From NCBI RefSeq assembly GCF_000828915.1, contig NZ_AP014569.1, forward strand, positions 372,001 through 436,000: a stretch of DNA of 64,000 nucleotides, read 5' to 3'. Every line of letters begins with the position of its first letter. Position 1 is the stretch's first letter. Below the pieces are notes generated by a model. That model was given only the letters and a program-made list of their open reading frames with translations. It was not told the DNA's origin and searched no databases. A program made the translations under genes and the position numbers. This document shows, one piece after another, positions 8,385 to 21,177 of the stretch. The DNA is from Serpentinimonas maccroryi (GTDB taxonomy: Bacteria; Pseudomonadota; Gammaproteobacteria; Burkholderiales; Burkholderiaceae_C).

Positions 8385-8410
8385 GCGCTGGGCACGGCAC
8401 CTGTGCCGCT

Positions 8411-8433
8411 GCGGGCGTGCATGCAACGCCCGC
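8411..8433. terminator. Stem-loop between convergent transglycosylase and ppsR genes
   Basis: GCGGGCGT / ACGCCCGC forms a perfect 8-bp stem around a 7-nt loop, 27 bp after the transglycosylase stop. There is no T tract, so it is a terminator-like hairpin only; position between convergent genes is the main support. Confidence 0.5.
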
Positions 8434-8450
8434 CCACACAGATCCAGATC

Positions 8451-9269
8451 TCACAGCTCCAGCTCTTGCCGGATCAGGGTGGCGATCTCTTCGATCGATT
8501 TGCTGGTGGTGGACAGGGTGCGGATGCCGGTGCGGCGCATCATGGCTTCGGCTTCGGCCACCTCGTAGCGGCAGTTCTCGAGGCTGGCGTAGCGCGAATT
8601 CGGGCGCCGCTCGTGCCGGATTTCGCTCAGGCGCTGGGGCTCGATGGTCAGGCCAAAGAGCTTTTTCTTGTGCGGCAGCAGCGGCGGTGGCAGCTGGCGG
8701 CGCTCGAAGTCTTCGGGGATGAGCGGGTAGTTGCTGGCCTTGAGGCCAAACTGCAGCGCCAGATAGAGCGAGGTCGGCGTCTTGCCGCTGCGGCTCACGC
8801 CCACCAAAATCACGTCGGACTGCGCCAGGTCTTTGTTGGTTTGGCCGTCGTCGTGGTCGAGCGTGAAGTTGATGGCCTCCATGCGGTCGTGGTACTCGCG
8901 GCTTTTGGCGACGTCAGAAAAGCGCCCGACGCGGTGGTTGGACTTGATCCCAAGCTCGTGCTCAAGCGGCGCGATGAAGGTGCCGAACATATCGATCAGC
9001 ATGCCCTTGCAGTGGCCGTGCAGCACCTGCAGCACCTCGGGGTTGACCACGGTGGTAAAGACCAGCGGCCGGCGGCCATCGACATCGGCCGCGTGGTTGA
9101 TCTGGCGCAGCGCCTGGTGCGCTTTGTCGGCGTCGTCGATGAAGGGCAGGCGCACGCGGCGCGGCTCGATCTCGAACTGCGCCAAGATGGCTTTGGCAAA
9201 GGTTTCGGCGGTGATGCCGGTGCCGTCGGAAACAAAAAAGGCGGTGCGGTGCGACATGCGGTGCGACAC
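8451..9269 (-). CDS. ppsR: PEP synthase regulatory protein (bifunctional kinase/pyrophosphorylase, DUF299)
   Basis: Controls PEP synthase by ADP-dependent phosphorylation of an active-site Thr and Pi-dependent dephosphorylation. The 272-residue product starts RTAFFVSDGTGITAETFAK, the family hallmark. It carries the P-loop-like GVSRSGKTPTSLYLA at about residue 155 and ends with the SIEEIATLI helix. It is encoded divergently from its target ppsA with 205 bp between start codons, the usual arrangement. The first residues, MSHRMSHR, reflect a short duplication (GTGCGACA repeats at 9246-9270), so MSHRTAFF could be the true start. Confidence 0.95.
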   Translation of the reverse strand: MSHRMSHRTAFFVSDGTGITAETFAKAILAQFEIEPRRVRLPFIDDADKAHQALRQINHAADVDGRRPLVFTTVVNPEVLQVLHGHCKGMLIDMFGTFIAPLEHELGIKSNHRVGRFSDVAKSREYHDRMEAINFTLDHDDGQTNKDLAQSDVILVGVSRSGKTPTSLYLALQFGLKASNYPLIPEDFERRQLPPPLLPHKKKLFGLTIEPQRLSEIRHERRPNSRYASLENCRYEVAEAEAMMRRTGIRTLSTTSKSIEEIATLIRQELEL

Positions 9270-14180: not shown

Positions 14181-17084
14181 TCAATGCCCGGCCCCAGGTG
14201 CAGCCCCGAGCAATGCATTCCCGAGCAGCTGGCGCAAGCGGTACAGCGCCTCGAGTGCCTCGCGCGGGCTCAAGGCGTCGGGGTCGAGCGCAGCCACGGC
14301 TTGCTCGAGGGCGCTTGGGGGCAGCGCAGCGGCGACCTCGGGTGCTGGAGGCTGCGCGTCTGGGGTCTGCGCGGTGTCCCAGGGCTCGGCGGCTTCGAAG
14401 GCGGCGCTGGGCGCGGGGGCAAACAGGTCGAGCTGCGCCTGCGCCGCCGCGCTGTGCGCCTCGAGCGCGTGCAAGAGCTGGCGCGCGTGCTGCAGCACGG
14501 CGGCGGGCACACCGGCCAGCCGCGCCACCTGCACGCCGTAGCTGCGGCTGGCTGGGCCAGGCTCGATCTGGTGCAAAAACACGATCTCGCGCCCGTTTTC
14601 GACCGCGCTCACGTGCACGTTGAGCGCGGCGGCGTGCTCGGCCGGGAAGCGGGTGAGCTCGAAGTAGTGGGTGGCAAACAGGGTGCAGGCGCGCACCTTG
14701 TCGTGCAGGTGGCTGGCGATGGCGCTGGCCAGCGCCAGGCCGTCAAAGGTCGAGGTGCCGCGGCCGATCTCGTCCATCAGCACCAGGCTGTGCGCGCTGG
14801 CGCGATGCAGGATCTGTGCCGCCTCGCTCATCTCGACCATGAAGGTGGACTGGGCGTTGGCCAGATCGTCAGCGGCCCCGATGCGGGTGTGGATGGCGTC
14901 CAGCGGCCCCAAGCGGCAGCGCTGCGCCGGCACGTAGCTGCCCATGCTGGCCAGCAGCGCGATCAGCGCCACCTGGCGCATGTAGGTGGATTTGCCGCCC
15001 ATGTTGGGGCCGGTGACGATCTGCAAGCGCGCCTTGGGGCCGAGCACGGTGTCGTTGGGGGTAAAGGCGGTGTGGCTCTCGGCCAGCCGCGCCTGCACCA
15101 CCGGGTGGCGGCCGGCACGGATTTCGATACCGGGCTCGAGGCTGAACTCGGGCGCGCACCAGTCCAGCGTGAGCGAGCGCTCGGCCAGCGCGCACAGGGC
15201 GTCGAGCGTGGCCAGCGCGCGCGCCAGTTCGGTGAGCGCGCTCAAGTACGGTTGCAGCTGTTCCAGCAGCGCCTCGTAGAGCCATTTTTCGCGCGCCAGG
15301 GCGCGCTCTTGGGCGCTCAGCACCTGGTCTTCAAAGGCCTTGAGCTCTGGGGTGATGAAGCGCTCGGCGTTTTTCAGGGTCTGGCGGCGCCGGTAGTCGG
15401 TGGGCACCCGATCGAGCTGGCCTTGGGTGATTTCGATATAAAAGCCGTGCACCTTGTTGTATTGCACGCGCAGGTTGGCAATGCCGCTGCGCGCGCGTTC
15501 GCGCGCCTCGAGCTCGAGCAAAAAGGCGTCGCAGTTGGACTGCAGGGCGCGCAAGCCATCGAGCTCGGCGTCGTGGCCGTGGTTGATCACGCCGCCTTCG
15601 CGCAGCTGCGCCGCCGGTTCGGGCAGCAGGGCGCGCTGCAGCAGGTCGGCGCAGCCGGGTGGCGGGATCAGGTGCTGCGCCACCCGTGTCAGCAGCGCGG
15701 ATTCGGCCGGTGGGACGGTGCGGGCCGGCTGCGGCACAGCGCCGCTTTGCAGCAGCTGCGCCAGCACGGCGGCGCGCTGCAGCGTCTGCGCCAGACCTGC
15801 CAGCTCGCGCGGGCGCACTTGGCGCAGCGCCAGCCGCGCCGCGATGCGCTCCACGTCGGCCGCGCCGGCCAGCGCCTGGCGCAGCGGCTGCTGCAGGTGC
15901 TCGCGCAGCACGCCGATGGCTTGCAGGCGCTCGAGGGCCGGCGTGCGGTTGCGCGGCGGCTCCAGCAGCCAGCGCCGCAGCAGCCGGCTGCCCATGCTGG
16001 TCTGGCAGCTGTCGAGCAGCGCAAACAGCGTCGGGCTGGGTTCGCCGCGCAGGGTCTGCGTCAGCTCCAGGTTGCGCCGGGTGCTGGGGGGCAGCTCGAT
16101 CAGTTCGTCGGGCCGCGCCACGCGCAGGGTGGCCAGGTGCGCCAGCGCCCGCCCTTGGGTGTGCTCGGCATAGTCCAGCAGCGCCGAGGCGGCCGCATGG
16201 GCCAGCGGCAAATCCTGCGCGCCCCAGCCGGCCAGGCTGGCGGCCTGCAACTGCGCGCACAGCTTGCGCAGCCCCAAGGCGCTATCGAAGGCCCAGGCCG
16301 GGCGCGCTGCCAGGCTCAGGCGTGCTGGCCCGGCCGCGCCCGTGCCTCCTGCCAGAGCCGGCCACTGGCGCTGCAGCTCCTGCAGCTCGCGGGTGCTGGA
16401 ATCGGCCAAGTCGGCGCTGTAGAGCAGCTCGCTGGGCCCGATGCGCACCGCCCAAGTGGGCAGCTCGTCGCTGCGGCACTGCGCCAGCTGCAGCTCGCCC
16501 AGCGTCAGGTTGAGCCACGCCAGGCCCAGCGTCTGGCGCGGCCCCCAGTGCAGCGCCAGCAGCACCGGCTCGGCTTTGTCGGGAAGCAGCTCGGCCTCGG
16601 TCAGGGTGCCGGGCGTGAGCACGCGCAGCACCTGGCGCTCGACCGGCCCCTTGGCCGTGGCCGGGTCGCCCACTTGCTCGCAAATGGCCACCGACTCACC
16701 GTGCTTGAGCAGCCGCGCCAGGTAGTTTTGCGCCGCATGAAAGGGCACGCCGGCCATGGGGATCGGCTCGCCGGCCGAGTGGCCGCGCCGTGTCAGGGTG
16801 ATGTCGAGCAGGCGCGCGGCCTTGTGCGCGTCTTCGTAAAACAGCTCGTAAAAATCGCCCATGCGGTAAAACAGCAAGGCGTCGGGGTGCTGGGCCTTGA
16901 GCGCGAGGTACTGGCGCATCATGGGCGTGTGCGTGCTGAGCTCGGCGGCGCTGGGGGCTGTGGCGGCTGTGCTGGCCGATGCGCTGGATGCGCCGGGCTT
17001 AGTCGAGGCGTCGGCGGCGCTGGCGGCGCTGGCGGCGCTGGCGGCGCTGGCGGCGCTGGCGGCCAAAGGGTGGGGGGTGCTCAT
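14181..17084 (-). CDS. mutS: DNA mismatch repair protein MutS
   Basis: Recognises mismatches and small loops and starts methyl-directed repair with MutL. The product is 967 residues, longer than the roughly 850 usual, because of a low-complexity N-terminus (Ala-Ser-Ala repeat, residues about 10-27) and a Pro/Ala-rich C-terminal linker. The mismatch-reading motif [13 protein letters not shown] lies near residue 75. The ATPase domain has Walker [15 protein letters not shown] (about residue 690), Walker [16 protein letters not shown], and ATHYFELT. All catalytic motifs look intact. Start 17084 precedes the repeat; a start inside or after the repeat cannot be excluded. The gene is divergent from the frameshifted EAL gene. 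Confidence 0.96.
17013..17057. repeat. Five perfect tandem 9-bp repeats inside the mutS N-terminus
   Basis: The unit GGCGGCGCT (plus strand) occurs five times head to tail, with a sixth partial copy. On the minus strand it encodes Ala-Ser-Ala per unit, so gain or loss of copies keeps the mutS frame. Confidence 0.95.
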
Positions 17085-17250
17085 GGGGGCCGATTTTGCC
17101 TGCAAGCGTGCGCGGCCAGGGCTGGGCGGCGCTGCGTAGGCAGACCCGTGAGCCAGGCCCGACTTGCGGCCGTGGCTGCAGAGTGGGGTGTTGTCGCACT
17201 TGCTTGGACGCTGCTTGGACGCTGCCCCCAGGATGTGTAAGATATTCACC

Positions 17251-18008
17251 ATGCAAGAATTGATTCCTCCTCACCCCGCCTGCCGCAAGTGTCAAGACCG
17301 TCCGCCACTGGACTTTGATTTCAGCATGGCTTTTCAGCCCATCGTCGATGTGCGCACGCAGCAGGTCTATACGAAGCCTTGGTAAGGGCACAAGCTGGCG
17401 GCTCGGCGGCCGAGGTGCTGGATCGTGTCAACGACGACAACCGCTACTTTTTTGATCAGACTTGCCGCGTCAAGGCGGTCGAATTGGCTGCTCGCTTGGG
17501 GCTAACGGCTCGCCTGAGCATCAACTTTATGCCCAACGCGGTCTATGAGGCCGCCACCTGCATACGTGCTACGTTGCAAGCGGCACAACAGTGCGGCTTT
17601 CCAACCCAGCAACTGGTTTTTGAAATCACCGAAAACGAACGCCTGGTCGATAAAGAGCACCTCAAGCGCATCATCAAAGAGTACAAACGCCAGGGCTTCA
17701 AGACCGCCATCGACGACTTTGGTGCCGGCTACTCGGGCCTGAACCTGCTGTCCGAGTTTCAGCCCGACCTGATCAAGCTCGACATGGACCTGACGCGCCA
17801 CATCGACAGCGACCAAGTGCGCCAAGCGATCGTGCGCGGCATTTTGGGGGTCTGCCAGGCGCTGCAGATCGAGGTCGTGGCCGAAGGCATCGAGACCGTC
17901 GCCGAATTCAAGACCCTGCGCGGCATGGGTGTGCCCTACATGCAAGGCTATCTGTTTGCACGCCCGGCCTACGAGAAACTGCCAGCGGTGCATTGGCCAG
18001 CGGGCTAG
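17251..18008 (+). pseudogene. EAL-domain c-di-GMP phosphodiesterase gene broken by a frameshift
   Basis: Two consecutive frames together encode one EAL domain. The first (17251-17385) starts [15 protein letters not shown], with a CxxC, continues with FSMAFQPIVDVRTQQVY, then runs into TAA. The second resumes in another frame at 17370 with YEALVRAQAGG and continues to 18008. It keeps FEITENE, AIDDFGAGYSGLNLL, LIKLDMDLTR and VVAEGIET, so catalytic residues other than the frame are intact. The join fits loss of four bases relative to the usual VYAYEALVR. Full length would be about 250 residues, a stand-alone EAL protein. It may be a true lesion, a sequencing error, or a gene read by reinitiation at TTG 17379. 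A TAAGAT hexamer lies 7 bp before the ATG. Confidence 0.8.
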
Positions 18009-18075: not shown

Positions 18076-18927
18076 TCAGGCTGGGCTGGCCGGGCTGGGT
18101 TTGGGCGCAGGTGGCGCAATCCGGCTATAGCCGTGCAGCAGGCTGACCATTTGGCCGTAGATGCGCGGGTTGGCGGCCAGACATTCGCCCTGTTCCAGAA
18201 AATCGGATTCGCCGCTGAAGTTGCCCACCAGACCGCCGGCTTCGGTCACCAGCAGCGCGCCGGCGGCCACGTCCCAAGGGCTCAGGCCGGTCTCGAAAAA
18301 CCCGTCGGCAAAACCAGCGGCCACGTAGGCCAGGTCGAGCGCGGCCGAGCCTGGGCGGCGCACCCCGCGCACCTTGGGCATGACCTCGCCCAGCATCTGC
18401 ATGAAGTGCGGTAGCGAGTCTCCGGGCCGAAACGGAAAGCCGGTGCTCACCAGGCAGTCGCTCAACTGGGTGCGTTTGGCCACGCGGATGCGGCGCTCGT
18501 TGAGGTAGGCGCCGCGGCCGCGGGTGGCGGTGAACAGGTCGTTGCGCGTCGGGTCGTAGATCACGGCCTGCTCGAGCTTGCCGTGCACCTGCAGCGCAAT
18601 GCTGACGCAATAGACCGGAAAGCCGTGGATGAAGTTGGTGGTGCCATCGAGCGGGTCGATGATCCAGACGAAGGCGCGATCGCGCCCCTTGCCCTCGCGC
18701 CGGCCCGATTCTTCGGCCCACAGGCCGTGGTCGGGGTAGGCCTCGTGCAGGGTGGCGATGATGGCTTGCTCGGCCGCTTGATCAACTTCGGTGACGTAGT
18801 CGTTGGTCTGCTTGGCCGATACGCGCACCGCCTCGATGTCGAGCGCGGCGCGGTTGATCAGGTTGCCGGCTGCGCGCGCGGCCTTAATGGCCACATTGAG
18901 CATGGGGTGCAGGTGCGGAGAGGTCAT
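18076..18927 (-). CDS. suhB: Inositol-1-monophosphatase family protein SuhB
   Basis: Mg-dependent phosphatase acting on inositol-1-phosphate; SuhB also acts in Nus-dependent rRNA antitermination in E. coli. The 283-residue product carries the metal-site motifs WAEESG (about residue 71), [15 protein letters not shown] (about residue 88) and the C-terminal [17 protein letters not shown]. Start 18927 ([18 protein letters not shown]) gives the usual N-terminus; the frame extends upstream through repeat DNA without similarity. A TAAAAT-like hexamer occurs on the minus strand about 55 bp upstream (near 18980). Confidence 0.95.
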
Positions 18928-19053
18928 GGTTGTGTAGGAGCGCAGGGTGGGGGCGCGATGGCCGCAGGAAGGAGGCCATTTTAGCGGGCTGGTGCCGAGG
19001 CGGTGGGGGCAAGCCTGTGTGGCGTGTGGTGGGGGCGGTGCGTCGGTGGGGTA

Positions 19054-19138
19054 GGGGCTGGGGCGCTGGGGGCAGCCGGCCTCATGCCGTCCGCTGCGCG
19101 GCCAGAAATCGGCCAACTGCCCCCAGCGCCCCAGCCCC
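19054..19138. repeat. 21-bp perfect inverted repeat with 43-nt loop
   Basis: The arms 19054-19074 and 19118-19138 are exact reverse complements, built from G4CTG4CGCTG5CA. The right arm lies inside the first 36-bp tandem repeat. Transcribed RNA would form a very stable hairpin. The structure sits upstream of suhB and left of the IS element. It has no T tract. With the tandem repeat it accounts for most of the 367-bp gene-free gap 18928-19294. Confidence 0.9.
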
Positions 19139-19200
19139 GCGAGATTGGTCAGTTGCCCCCAGCGCCCCAGCGCCATGAGATTGACCAGTTGCCCCAGCGA
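19105..19200. repeat. 36-bp tandem repeat, 2.7 copies
   Basis: Units at 19105-19140, 19141-19176 and a partial unit at 19177-19200. Each begins GARATYGRYCARYTGCCCC and the first two continue with CCAGCGCCCCAGC. Differences are mostly transitions. A reading frame through it on the minus strand gives a 12-residue period (GRWGQL), but there is no sign that it is expressed as protein. Confidence 0.9.
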
Positions 19201-19527
19201 TGAACAATGGATAACGCCCAGTGTCTATGCAATCGTCGGGGATGCGACACGTATCCTCAAACCGGCGGGTAACTTTTATACCGACTGCCCCCCATGTCAG
19301 AATACTTGTCGCCTCGATAGAACCCGGCTGTTCCTGACTTCAAAGTCATGAACCTTGGTGGTAGGAGGCTGTGGAGCTTGTGGTCGAAGGTCGGTGCGGT
19401 GGGCAACGCGTCAGCGTTGTCCACGGCCAGCCGACCGGTGCGCGCAGCGCATCGTCCACAAATCCACAGCCTGCACTGGCGCCGGGTGGCACAGCACACA
19501 CTCGGGGGCGAGTGAAGAGAGAACGAA

Positions 19528-20001
19528 GTGGCTCGATACGGACAAGCATTCAAAAACCGCGTGGTAGCCCGGCTGCTGCCACCAGAGAGCGCCCCACTGG
19601 CGGCGCTGGCACAAGAGTTTGGCGTGAGCGCCGACACCCTAGAGCGCTGGCGCAGCGCCGCTTTGGCCCAGCCCGCGCAGCAGCGCAGTTGGACGGCGGC
19701 GGCGCGCCTCGAAGCGGTGATCAGCACAGCGGCGCTGGACGAGGCAGCGCGCAGCGCCTGGTGCCGCCAGCACGGCCTGTACCCGCACGATCTGGCGCAG
19801 TGGCACAGCAGCGCTGCGCAGGCCCTGGCCAGCCCCGAGGAGGCCCGCGCCAGCCCGCAGCAGACCAAGGAAGACCGGCGGCGCATCAAAGAGCTCGAAC
19901 GCGAGCTGCGCCGCAAGGACAAGGCCCTGGCCGAGACGGCAGCGCTGCTGGTGCTGTCAAAAAAAGTCGAGGCGATCTTCCACAAGGGCGCGGCCGAATG
20001 A
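19528..20001 (+). CDS. IS3-family transposase OrfA (HTH DNA-binding protein)
   Basis: A 157-residue protein starting at GTG 19528 (MARYGQAFKNRVVARLL) with a helix-turn-helix (LAALAQEFGVSADTLERWR) that recognises the IS ends. A C-terminal coiled-coil/leucine-zipper-like region (RIKELERELRRKDKALAETAA) fits OrfA multimerisation. The slippery heptamer A-AAA-AAA (19959-19965), in zero frame, would shift ribosomes -1 into orfB to make the OrfAB transposase. The stop overlaps the orfB start (ATGA at 19998-20001). Confidence 0.88.
   Translation: MARYGQAFKNRVVARLLPPESAPLAALAQEFGVSADTLERWRSAALAQPAQQRSWTAAARLEAVISTAALDEAARSAWCRQHGLYPHDLAQWHSSAAQALASPEEARASPQQTKEDRRRIKELERELRRKDKALAETAALLVLSKKVEAIFHKGAAE
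19959..19965 (+). promoter_or_regulatory. Programmed -1 ribosomal frameshift site (A7)
   Basis: In the orfA frame the codons TCA AAA AAA GTC give a canonical A-AAA-AAA slippery heptamer. The downstream frame reached by a -1 shift is that of OrfB and stays open to 21089. This is the known mechanism for OrfAB production in IS3 elements. A stimulatory stem-loop or pseudoknot was not modelled. Confidence 0.75.
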
Positions 20002-21089
20002 TCGGCCTCGAAGATCGCCGCAGTTTGGCCCAAGACATCCAAGCGGCTCACGCAGCCGGTGCACGGCTGCACAAGGCCTGCGAGGTTGCCGGCATTGACG
20101 TGCGCACCCTGCAGCGCTGGCGCGCCGGTGCGGGCTTGCAACGCGGCGACGGCCGCCCACAGGCCGTGCGGCCTACGCCCGGGCATGCCTTGAGCCCCGT
20201 CGAGCGTGAGCAGATCCTGCGTGTGGCCAACCAGCCGCGCTTTGCCGACATGCCCCCGGCGCGCATTGTGCCGGCCTTGGCCGACGAGGGCGTGTATCTG
20301 GCCAGCGAATCCAGCTTTCAGCGCGTGCTGCGCGCGCATGGTCAGACGCAGCACCGCGGGCGCGCCAAGGCGCCGCGCGCCAGCCGCGCGCCAACCACCC
20401 ACGTGGCCACGGCGCCGCGCCAACTGTGGTGCTGGGACATGAGCTACCTGCCGGCGCAGGTCACTGGGCGTTGGTTCTATCTGTACCTGATTCTGGACGT
20501 CTACAGCCGCAAGATCGTGGGCTTTGAAGTCCATGAGCGCGACGACTCCGTGCACGCCACGCAGTTGGTCAAGCGCACGGCGCTGGCCGAGGGCATCCAC
20601 GCCTTGGACAACAAGCCCGTGCTGCACGGCGACAACGGCGCCACGCTCAAGGCCACCACCGTGCTGGCGATGCTGCACTGGCTGGGCGTCAAGCCCTCGT
20701 ACTCGCGGCCCCGCGTCAGCGACGACAACGCCTTTGTGGAGAGCCTGTTTCGCACGGCCAAGTACAGGCCGCAGTATCCTGAAAAAGGGTTTGCCGACTT
20801 GCAGGCTGCGCGCCAGTGGGCGAGCGATTTCGTGCATTGGTACAACCATGAGCACCGCCACAGTGGCATCCGCTACGTCACGCCGGCGCAGCGCCATGCC
20901 GGACTGGACCAAGAGATTCTGCAAGCACGCCACGCCCTCTACGCCCAAGCCCGCGAAGACAACCCGCGGCGCTGGTCTGGCCCCACGCGCGACTGGTCAC
21001 TCATCAAAACCGTCACCCTCAACCCTGAACGAACGGAGGTGCAAAACGCTGCCCTGACGCGCAGCATTACGCAGCCAATGGCTGCTTGA
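19998..21089 (+). CDS. IS3-family transposase OrfB (DDE integrase)
   Basis: 363 residues from ATG 19998, in the -1 frame relative to orfA; this frame is open back past the slippery A7 run, as needed for an OrfAB fusion. The rve-type catalytic core is intact: first Asp in CWDMSYLPAQ, second in LHGDNGATLKA, and Glu in DDNAFVESLF, with 35 residues between the second Asp and the Glu (DD35E). It is followed by WYNHEHRHSGIRYVTPAQR, the usual IS3 C-terminal signature. No internal stop or frameshift was seen, so the element may be active. Confidence 0.93.
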   Translation: MIGLEDRRSLAQDIQAAHAAGARLHKACEVAGIDVRTLQRWRAGAGLQRGDGRPQAVRPTPGHALSPVEREQILRVANQPRFADMPPARIVPALADEGVYLASESSFQRVLRAHGQTQHRGRAKAPRASRAPTTHVATAPRQLWCWDMSYLPAQVTGRWFYLYLILDVYSRKIVGFEVHERDDSVHATQLVKRTALAEGIHALDNKPVLHGDNGATLKATTVLAMLHWLGVKPSYSRPRVSDDNAFVESLFRTAKYRPQYPEKGFADLQAARQWASDFVHWYNHEHRHSGIRYVTPAQRHAGLDQEILQARHALYAQAREDNPRRWSGPTRDWSLIKTVTLNPERTEVQNAALTRSITQPMAA

Positions 21090-21177
21090 GGACGCGACAA
21101 GTTGCTTGACATGTACCGACTGGTCTGCCGCCGCCAGCCCAGAGCGAGAAAATGGTGGATTGAACCCGATTTTTTCT

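Follow-up and report, generated by a model that had tools for sequence, protein, structure and literature searches.

Probable recent inactivation of a stand-alone EAL phosphodiesterase gene in Serpentinimonas maccroryi by a net 4-nt deletion before the EAL motif

The gene for a stand-alone EAL protein in the genome of Serpentinimonas maccroryi (G000; 2.62 Mb in 2 contigs) is divided over two reading frames, and we consider it, with a probability of roughly 0.8, to be a young and otherwise ordinary pseudogene that arose through a net deletion of 4 nt before its EAL motif. It is located in the stretch of 64,000 nucleotides analysed here (C1:372001-436000), hereafter called the window. In the scenario that we propose, a c-di-GMP phosphodiesterase gene would have been inactivated recently, its remaining product would be a truncated protein of 44 residues without the catalytic domain, and no visible feature of the sequence would restore the frame. 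The break would also fit a local pair of cyclase and phosphodiesterase genes that is eroding, with the EAL gene inverted and the GGDEF partner absent. Taken alone, the case adds a further young pseudogene to a very large family of enzymes.

The frame break at the EAL motif

The N-terminal part of the gene (N-part; 17251-17385, forward strand) runs from an ATG at 17251, a plausible start as judged from the sequence, to a TAA at 17383-17385 and encodes in its 44 residues a CxxC motif (17281-17292) and the FQPIVD strand. It resembles the N-termini of the corresponding proteins of the congeners G001 and G002, with which 30 codons were aligned. The frame of the C-terminal part opens past a stop at 17316-17318, reads EALVR from 17373 and ends with a TAG at 18006-18008; the C-part itself (17373-18008, forward strand) comprises 211 codons without an internal stop. 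The frames share the interval 17319-17385, and the junction, at which the net 4 nt are missing relative to the congeners, falls within about 17368-17372 of the forward strand, directly 5' of the Glu codon of EAL. A sequence-only reading of this DNA had described a frameshift right at the EAL motif, with the frame changing at 17370 and EALVR out of frame with the N-terminus. This description holds: two frames are present, 17370 lies inside the junction interval, and no single open frame covers the EAL domain together with a start codon 5' of the Glu of EAL. The intact protein of G001 also matches the locus in two frames in a census of frames against the ORFs of the congeners.

The C-part reaches 157.4 bits with the Pfam EAL profile (PF00563; cut-off 31.3) over profile positions 53-236, and the N-part reaches 12.8 bits over positions 12-29, which is below the cut-off. 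The earlier claim that the catalytic motifs are conserved is borne out by an alignment of eight rows, that of the window included, in which E1, N51, E84, D114, D115, K135, E171 and Q191 of the C-part, i.e., the E(AL), N, E, DD, K, E, and Q columns, are invariant. The catalytic and metal-binding roles of these residues were taken from literature passages and mapped to the columns of the C-part by eye. E175 of RocR, the E of its EAL motif, is described in one such passage as catalytic and metal-coordinating (PMC7911125), and a passage on ProE counts the E328 mutant as one of those whose activity is very low or abolished (PMC7290235).

The size of the lesion can be read from the distance between the Q of FQPIVD and the E of EAL, which is 38 nt in the window gene vs. 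14 residues (42 nt) in 94 of the 97 scorable relatives (15 residues in two and 25 in one), in agreement with the loss of 4 nt proposed before. Scorable were those of the 109 related loci examined that have a QP motif upstream in an open frame; the 12 others comprise nine loci with an FHP variant in an open frame, two loci cut by a contig edge (L030 and L068), and L108. The last, from a genome of another genus (G107), holds a relative of the EAL gene that lacks the 5' part, EAL motif included. When the HP variants are counted, the enzyme lies in one frame in 106 of the 109 related loci. Of the 97 scored relatives, 95 carry a CxxC motif ahead of the EAL domain; as far as its sequence tells, this feature of the family's N-terminus might serve as a metal or redox site.

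A comparison with close relatives, suggested earlier as a check, gave the same picture, both congeners (the set consisting of G001 and G002, one genome per species) being open through the motif where the window is broken. A search found the gene in all three genomes of the genus, that of S. maccroryi included, and, with a threshold of E <= 1e-70, in 65 genomes out of a sample of 399 from the family. The C-part shares 77% identity with the open genes of G001 and G002. A tree was built from the window gene plus 70 of the 109 related sequences fetched, 71 rows in all; in it the window gene is sister to those of the two congeners (99/94), and the three fall inside a set of six that also comprises Comamonas granuli, Comamonas sp. 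NTP6, and G213 (96/91). The branch of the window row measures 0.27 vs. 0.044-0.047 for the congeners plus 0.13 that they share.

Soundness of the sequence and translation of the C-part

An error of sequencing or assembly restricted to the junction, behind which the EAL gene would be intact, seems unlikely to us. It would fit a gene that has no further damage, a low dN/dS and a C-part without decay. However, the lesion is a loss of 4 nt outside a homopolymer, to our knowledge not a usual type of sequencing error, the EAL locus is rearranged anyway (see below), and a comparison of the window with 48 congener-derived ORFs revealed no other frame change. In this census the ORFs of four stretches of G002 were used, with a coding filter and a floor of at least 50% identity, and the one flag raised corresponds to two overlapping genes. 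The set of 48 includes some antisense shadow ORFs, the true genes numbering roughly 40 by our judgement. The EAL gene had itself been displaced from the set by a shadow ORF; it was flagged against the G001 protein in a first census, the other flags of which look like antisense shadow ORFs or neighbouring genes on the basis of codon-position GC and the ORFs of the window. A recheck of six ORFs, partially covered ones among them, revealed no frame change, the good match of one of these (L120 17313-18068) extending over only 59 of 251 residues. Since no other frame change was found in the 48 ORFs, a generally poor assembly is unlikely.

If the lesion is real, the C-part might still be translated by itself. 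Its frame contains no ATG, GTG, or TTG between the stop at 17316-17318 and position 17379, and the first start, a TTG at 17379-17381 on the forward strand, is, on reading of the frame, the L codon of EAL. Translation from this TTG, coupled to the TAA ending at 17385, would yield a short EAL protein that might still have some function, such as binding c-di-GMP or a partner, and the position of the TTG just before the stop of the N-part frame would suit such reinitiation. The product would, however, be devoid of E and A of the EAL motif as well as of the FQPIVD strand, and by eye no obvious purine-rich ribosome site was seen 5' of the TTG. Because the catalytic Glu precedes the TTG and is thus outside the product, hydrolysis of c-di-GMP would not be expected, and we consider reinitiation, one of the options named in the sequence-only reading, to be very improbable.

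Still less credible is that ribosomal -1 frameshifting, whether programmed or casual, yields the full enzyme. The overlap of the frames (17319-17385) makes such a shift geometrically possible, but by eye no X XXY YYZ heptamer was found at the junction, the RNA downstream of it folds like shuffled sequences (z 0.06), and after a -1 shift one residue would still be missing ahead of the EAL motif. The enzyme is, moreover, encoded in one frame in nearly all related loci (106/109), and assignment to the programmed -1 frameshift genes was rejected, as heptamer and stimulator were not found and the split is not conserved in relatives. The suggestion of frameshifting made earlier is, therefore, disfavoured. 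A promoter scan found no sigma-70-like site, and terminator-like sites numbered 2 vs. 1.3 expected. From the sequence, a loss of function of the EAL gene is most likely.

The locus, its GGDEF partner and the age of the lesion

On one side the EAL gene is flanked by a divergent ORF on the reverse strand (14181-17252), which we take to be mutS and which is syntenic with G001 and G002; its true start is probably further in, the alignment with the congeners beginning near 16934. At the N-terminal end of this mutS frame (17011-17063) a 9-nt unit is repeated head-to-tail and translates into a stretch rich in Ala and Ser, which the listed MutS frames of the congeners do not show. On the other side lies a convergent ORF, also on the reverse strand (18076-19176; congener alignment about 18121-18945), presumably an inositol-monophosphatase-like (IMPase) gene. 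In both congeners the order is IMPase, EAL, PAS-PAS-GGDEF, and mutS, all on one strand, and the EAL and GGDEF genes overlap by 4 nt; the PAS domains were assigned by reading the sequence. Relative to this arrangement, the EAL gene of the window is inverted between mutS and IMPase. DNA similarity to the EAL gene of the congeners stops near the gene edges (17290-17998), and only short imperfect pairs of inverted repeats were found around the flipped gene. A close relative of the GGDEF partner was not found in G000 (best match 36% identity), an absence that represents either loss here or gain in the line of the congeners. The phosphodiesterase may, judging from this arrangement, already have been dispensable in the absence of its partner.

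The dN/dS of the EAL C-part is 0.159 and 0.129 for the window vs. the two congeners and 0.091 between the congeners, compared with 0.119, 0.130, and 0.031 for IMPase and 0.233, 0.268, and 0.117 for mutS; the 30 codons of the N-part gave 0.084 and 0.096, at dS > 2. The EAL gene is thus close to IMPase and below mutS, and it shows no window-side excess of amino-acid changes vs. these neighbours. Its dS vs. the congeners (1.08 and 1.40, against 0.32-0.44 in the two neighbours) exceeds 1 and is near saturation, and dN/dS is, therefore, a measure of constraint here and cannot date the lesion. Where the congeners agree, window-side changes (synonymous/nonsynonymous) amount to 45.3/40.7 in the EAL C-part, 43/21 in IMPase, and 128.5/114.5 in mutS, counts that are unpolarised and include the stem of the congeners, and some relaxation of the EAL gene before the lesion is possible. 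Both features looked for in a pseudogene, a broken frame next to open orthologues and recent constraint, were found. We infer from the preserved catalytic residues and the low dN/dS, together with the two open congeners, that the lesion is recent, as had been proposed from the sequence. Horizontal replacement of the EAL gene, considered in view of its inversion and high dS, was set aside: the tree places the window gene with the congeners, and between G001 and G002 the dS of the EAL gene (0.54) likewise exceeds that of the neighbours (0.17 and 0.21) roughly threefold.

The GGDEF partner has a broken record of its own. It is open in G002 (L120 8758-10086), frame-split by a 2-nt difference in G001 (L119 8695-10022), and split at another place in G213, where a gene of 52-56% similarity (L092 7-1471) is convergent to the EAL gene. 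The pair was seen side by side in three genomes, and only in G002 are both genes open, although G001 and G213 are drafts and their GGDEF breaks could be errors. Among the 107 other related loci, many with flanks of only 1.5 kb, only that of G213 gave a match at E <= 1e-25 to any of the three genes (partner, mutS, IMPase), and in a plain motif search one of 16 loci with longer flanks showed a GGDEF frame (L017). Six of 398 family genomes, among them G001 and G002, contain relatives of the partner at E <= 1e-100; the relatives in the remaining four have 48-50% identity, and these four genomes are outside the set with an EAL match at E <= 1e-70. In G002, about 3.5 kb that are not present in G001 separate mutS from the GGDEF gene (L120 4957-8719) and carry a second, partial copy of the 5' end of mutS (about 8390-8622).

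Breaks across the pair thus comprise that of the EAL gene in the genome of the window and those of the GGDEF gene in G001 and G213, next to the EAL relative without 5' part in G107. That the EAL and PAS-PAS-GGDEF genes form a local signalling pair repeatedly switched off in different lineages by small frame-changing indels, contingency-like and under recurrent selection for loss, seems very improbable, yet this repeated breakage is the part that deserves a second look. If true and not draft noise, it would provide a small natural case of the dismantling of a cyclase/phosphodiesterase module, in which the cyclase was possibly lost first.

Elsewhere in the genome, EAL matches number 15 in S. maccroryi and 15 and 14 in the congeners, GGDEF matches in S. 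maccroryi number 22 (two being pieces of one broken domain), and each of the three genomes of the genus has three flagellin-domain matches. The earlier remark that loss of the phosphodiesterase could affect motility is speculative: as about a dozen near-complete EAL domains remain, the effect of one loss on motility is not predictable. Three of the 15 EAL matches belong to damaged genes, i.e., the window gene, a gene at C1:1544.9-1547.0 kb, and a stub at C1:1711440-1711733. The second is a GGDEF-EAL gene (C1:1544871-1547000; L005 41-2106) in which the frame changes inside the GGDEF domain, in a poorly alignable stretch; its relative in G002 (86% in the EAL part) has an open frame of 1065 residues, and that in G001 one of only 457, along with an altered GGDEF motif. 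The stub is separated by about 0.4 kb from an insertion element (region C1:1711440-1713828; L125) that is an identical copy of the transposase-bearing element of the window (19400-21118, forward strand; left bound set by the query start), and between stub and element are short repeats, with the translations PRASGDRP and PAQAGID, which we take to resemble CRISPR repeats. The window copy, whose start is about 1.4 kb away from the EAL gene, has no counterpart at this position in G001 and G002; as the five copies in the genome, this one included, are 100% identical, the element has probably moved recently.

Comparison with known systems

The closest solved relatives of the C-part are 6ih1 and 6ifq (E 7e-74, residues 1-207), which we take to be VcEAL (VC0395_A1247) of Vibrio cholerae. 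VcEAL is a stand-alone EAL phosphodiesterase like the product of the window gene, but it is encoded in one open frame whereas the frame of the window gene is broken. Its activity on c-di-GMP and cGAMP is mentioned, by way of citation, in a passage of PMC7290235. The EAL protein urf2 of the mer operon of C. metallidurans and ZpdA of V. cholerae were set aside, as both have, according to passages on them (PMC6629876 and PMC12607878, respectively), another domain layout. The next-best solved match is the EAL domain of Klebsiella BlrP1 (3gfx; C-part residues 1-210, 2.2e-43). In BlrP1 this domain is fused to a BLUF light sensor, whereas the window gene has only a short CxxC N-terminus.

In Yersinia pestis, small mutations disable EAL phosphodiesterases, and a selected role has been claimed for this. 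The window gene shares with that case the small disabling mutation, the claim of a selected role applying to Y. pestis only. The genome of S. maccroryi also resembles Shigella flexneri, where several genes of c-di-GMP turnover are broken in one lineage according to passages of PMC11327459. The same passages report that cyclase genes of S. flexneri with nonsense mutations before the GGDEF domain still act (PMC11327459); unlike in the cyclases described there, the first in-frame start of the window gene lies inside the catalytic motif itself.
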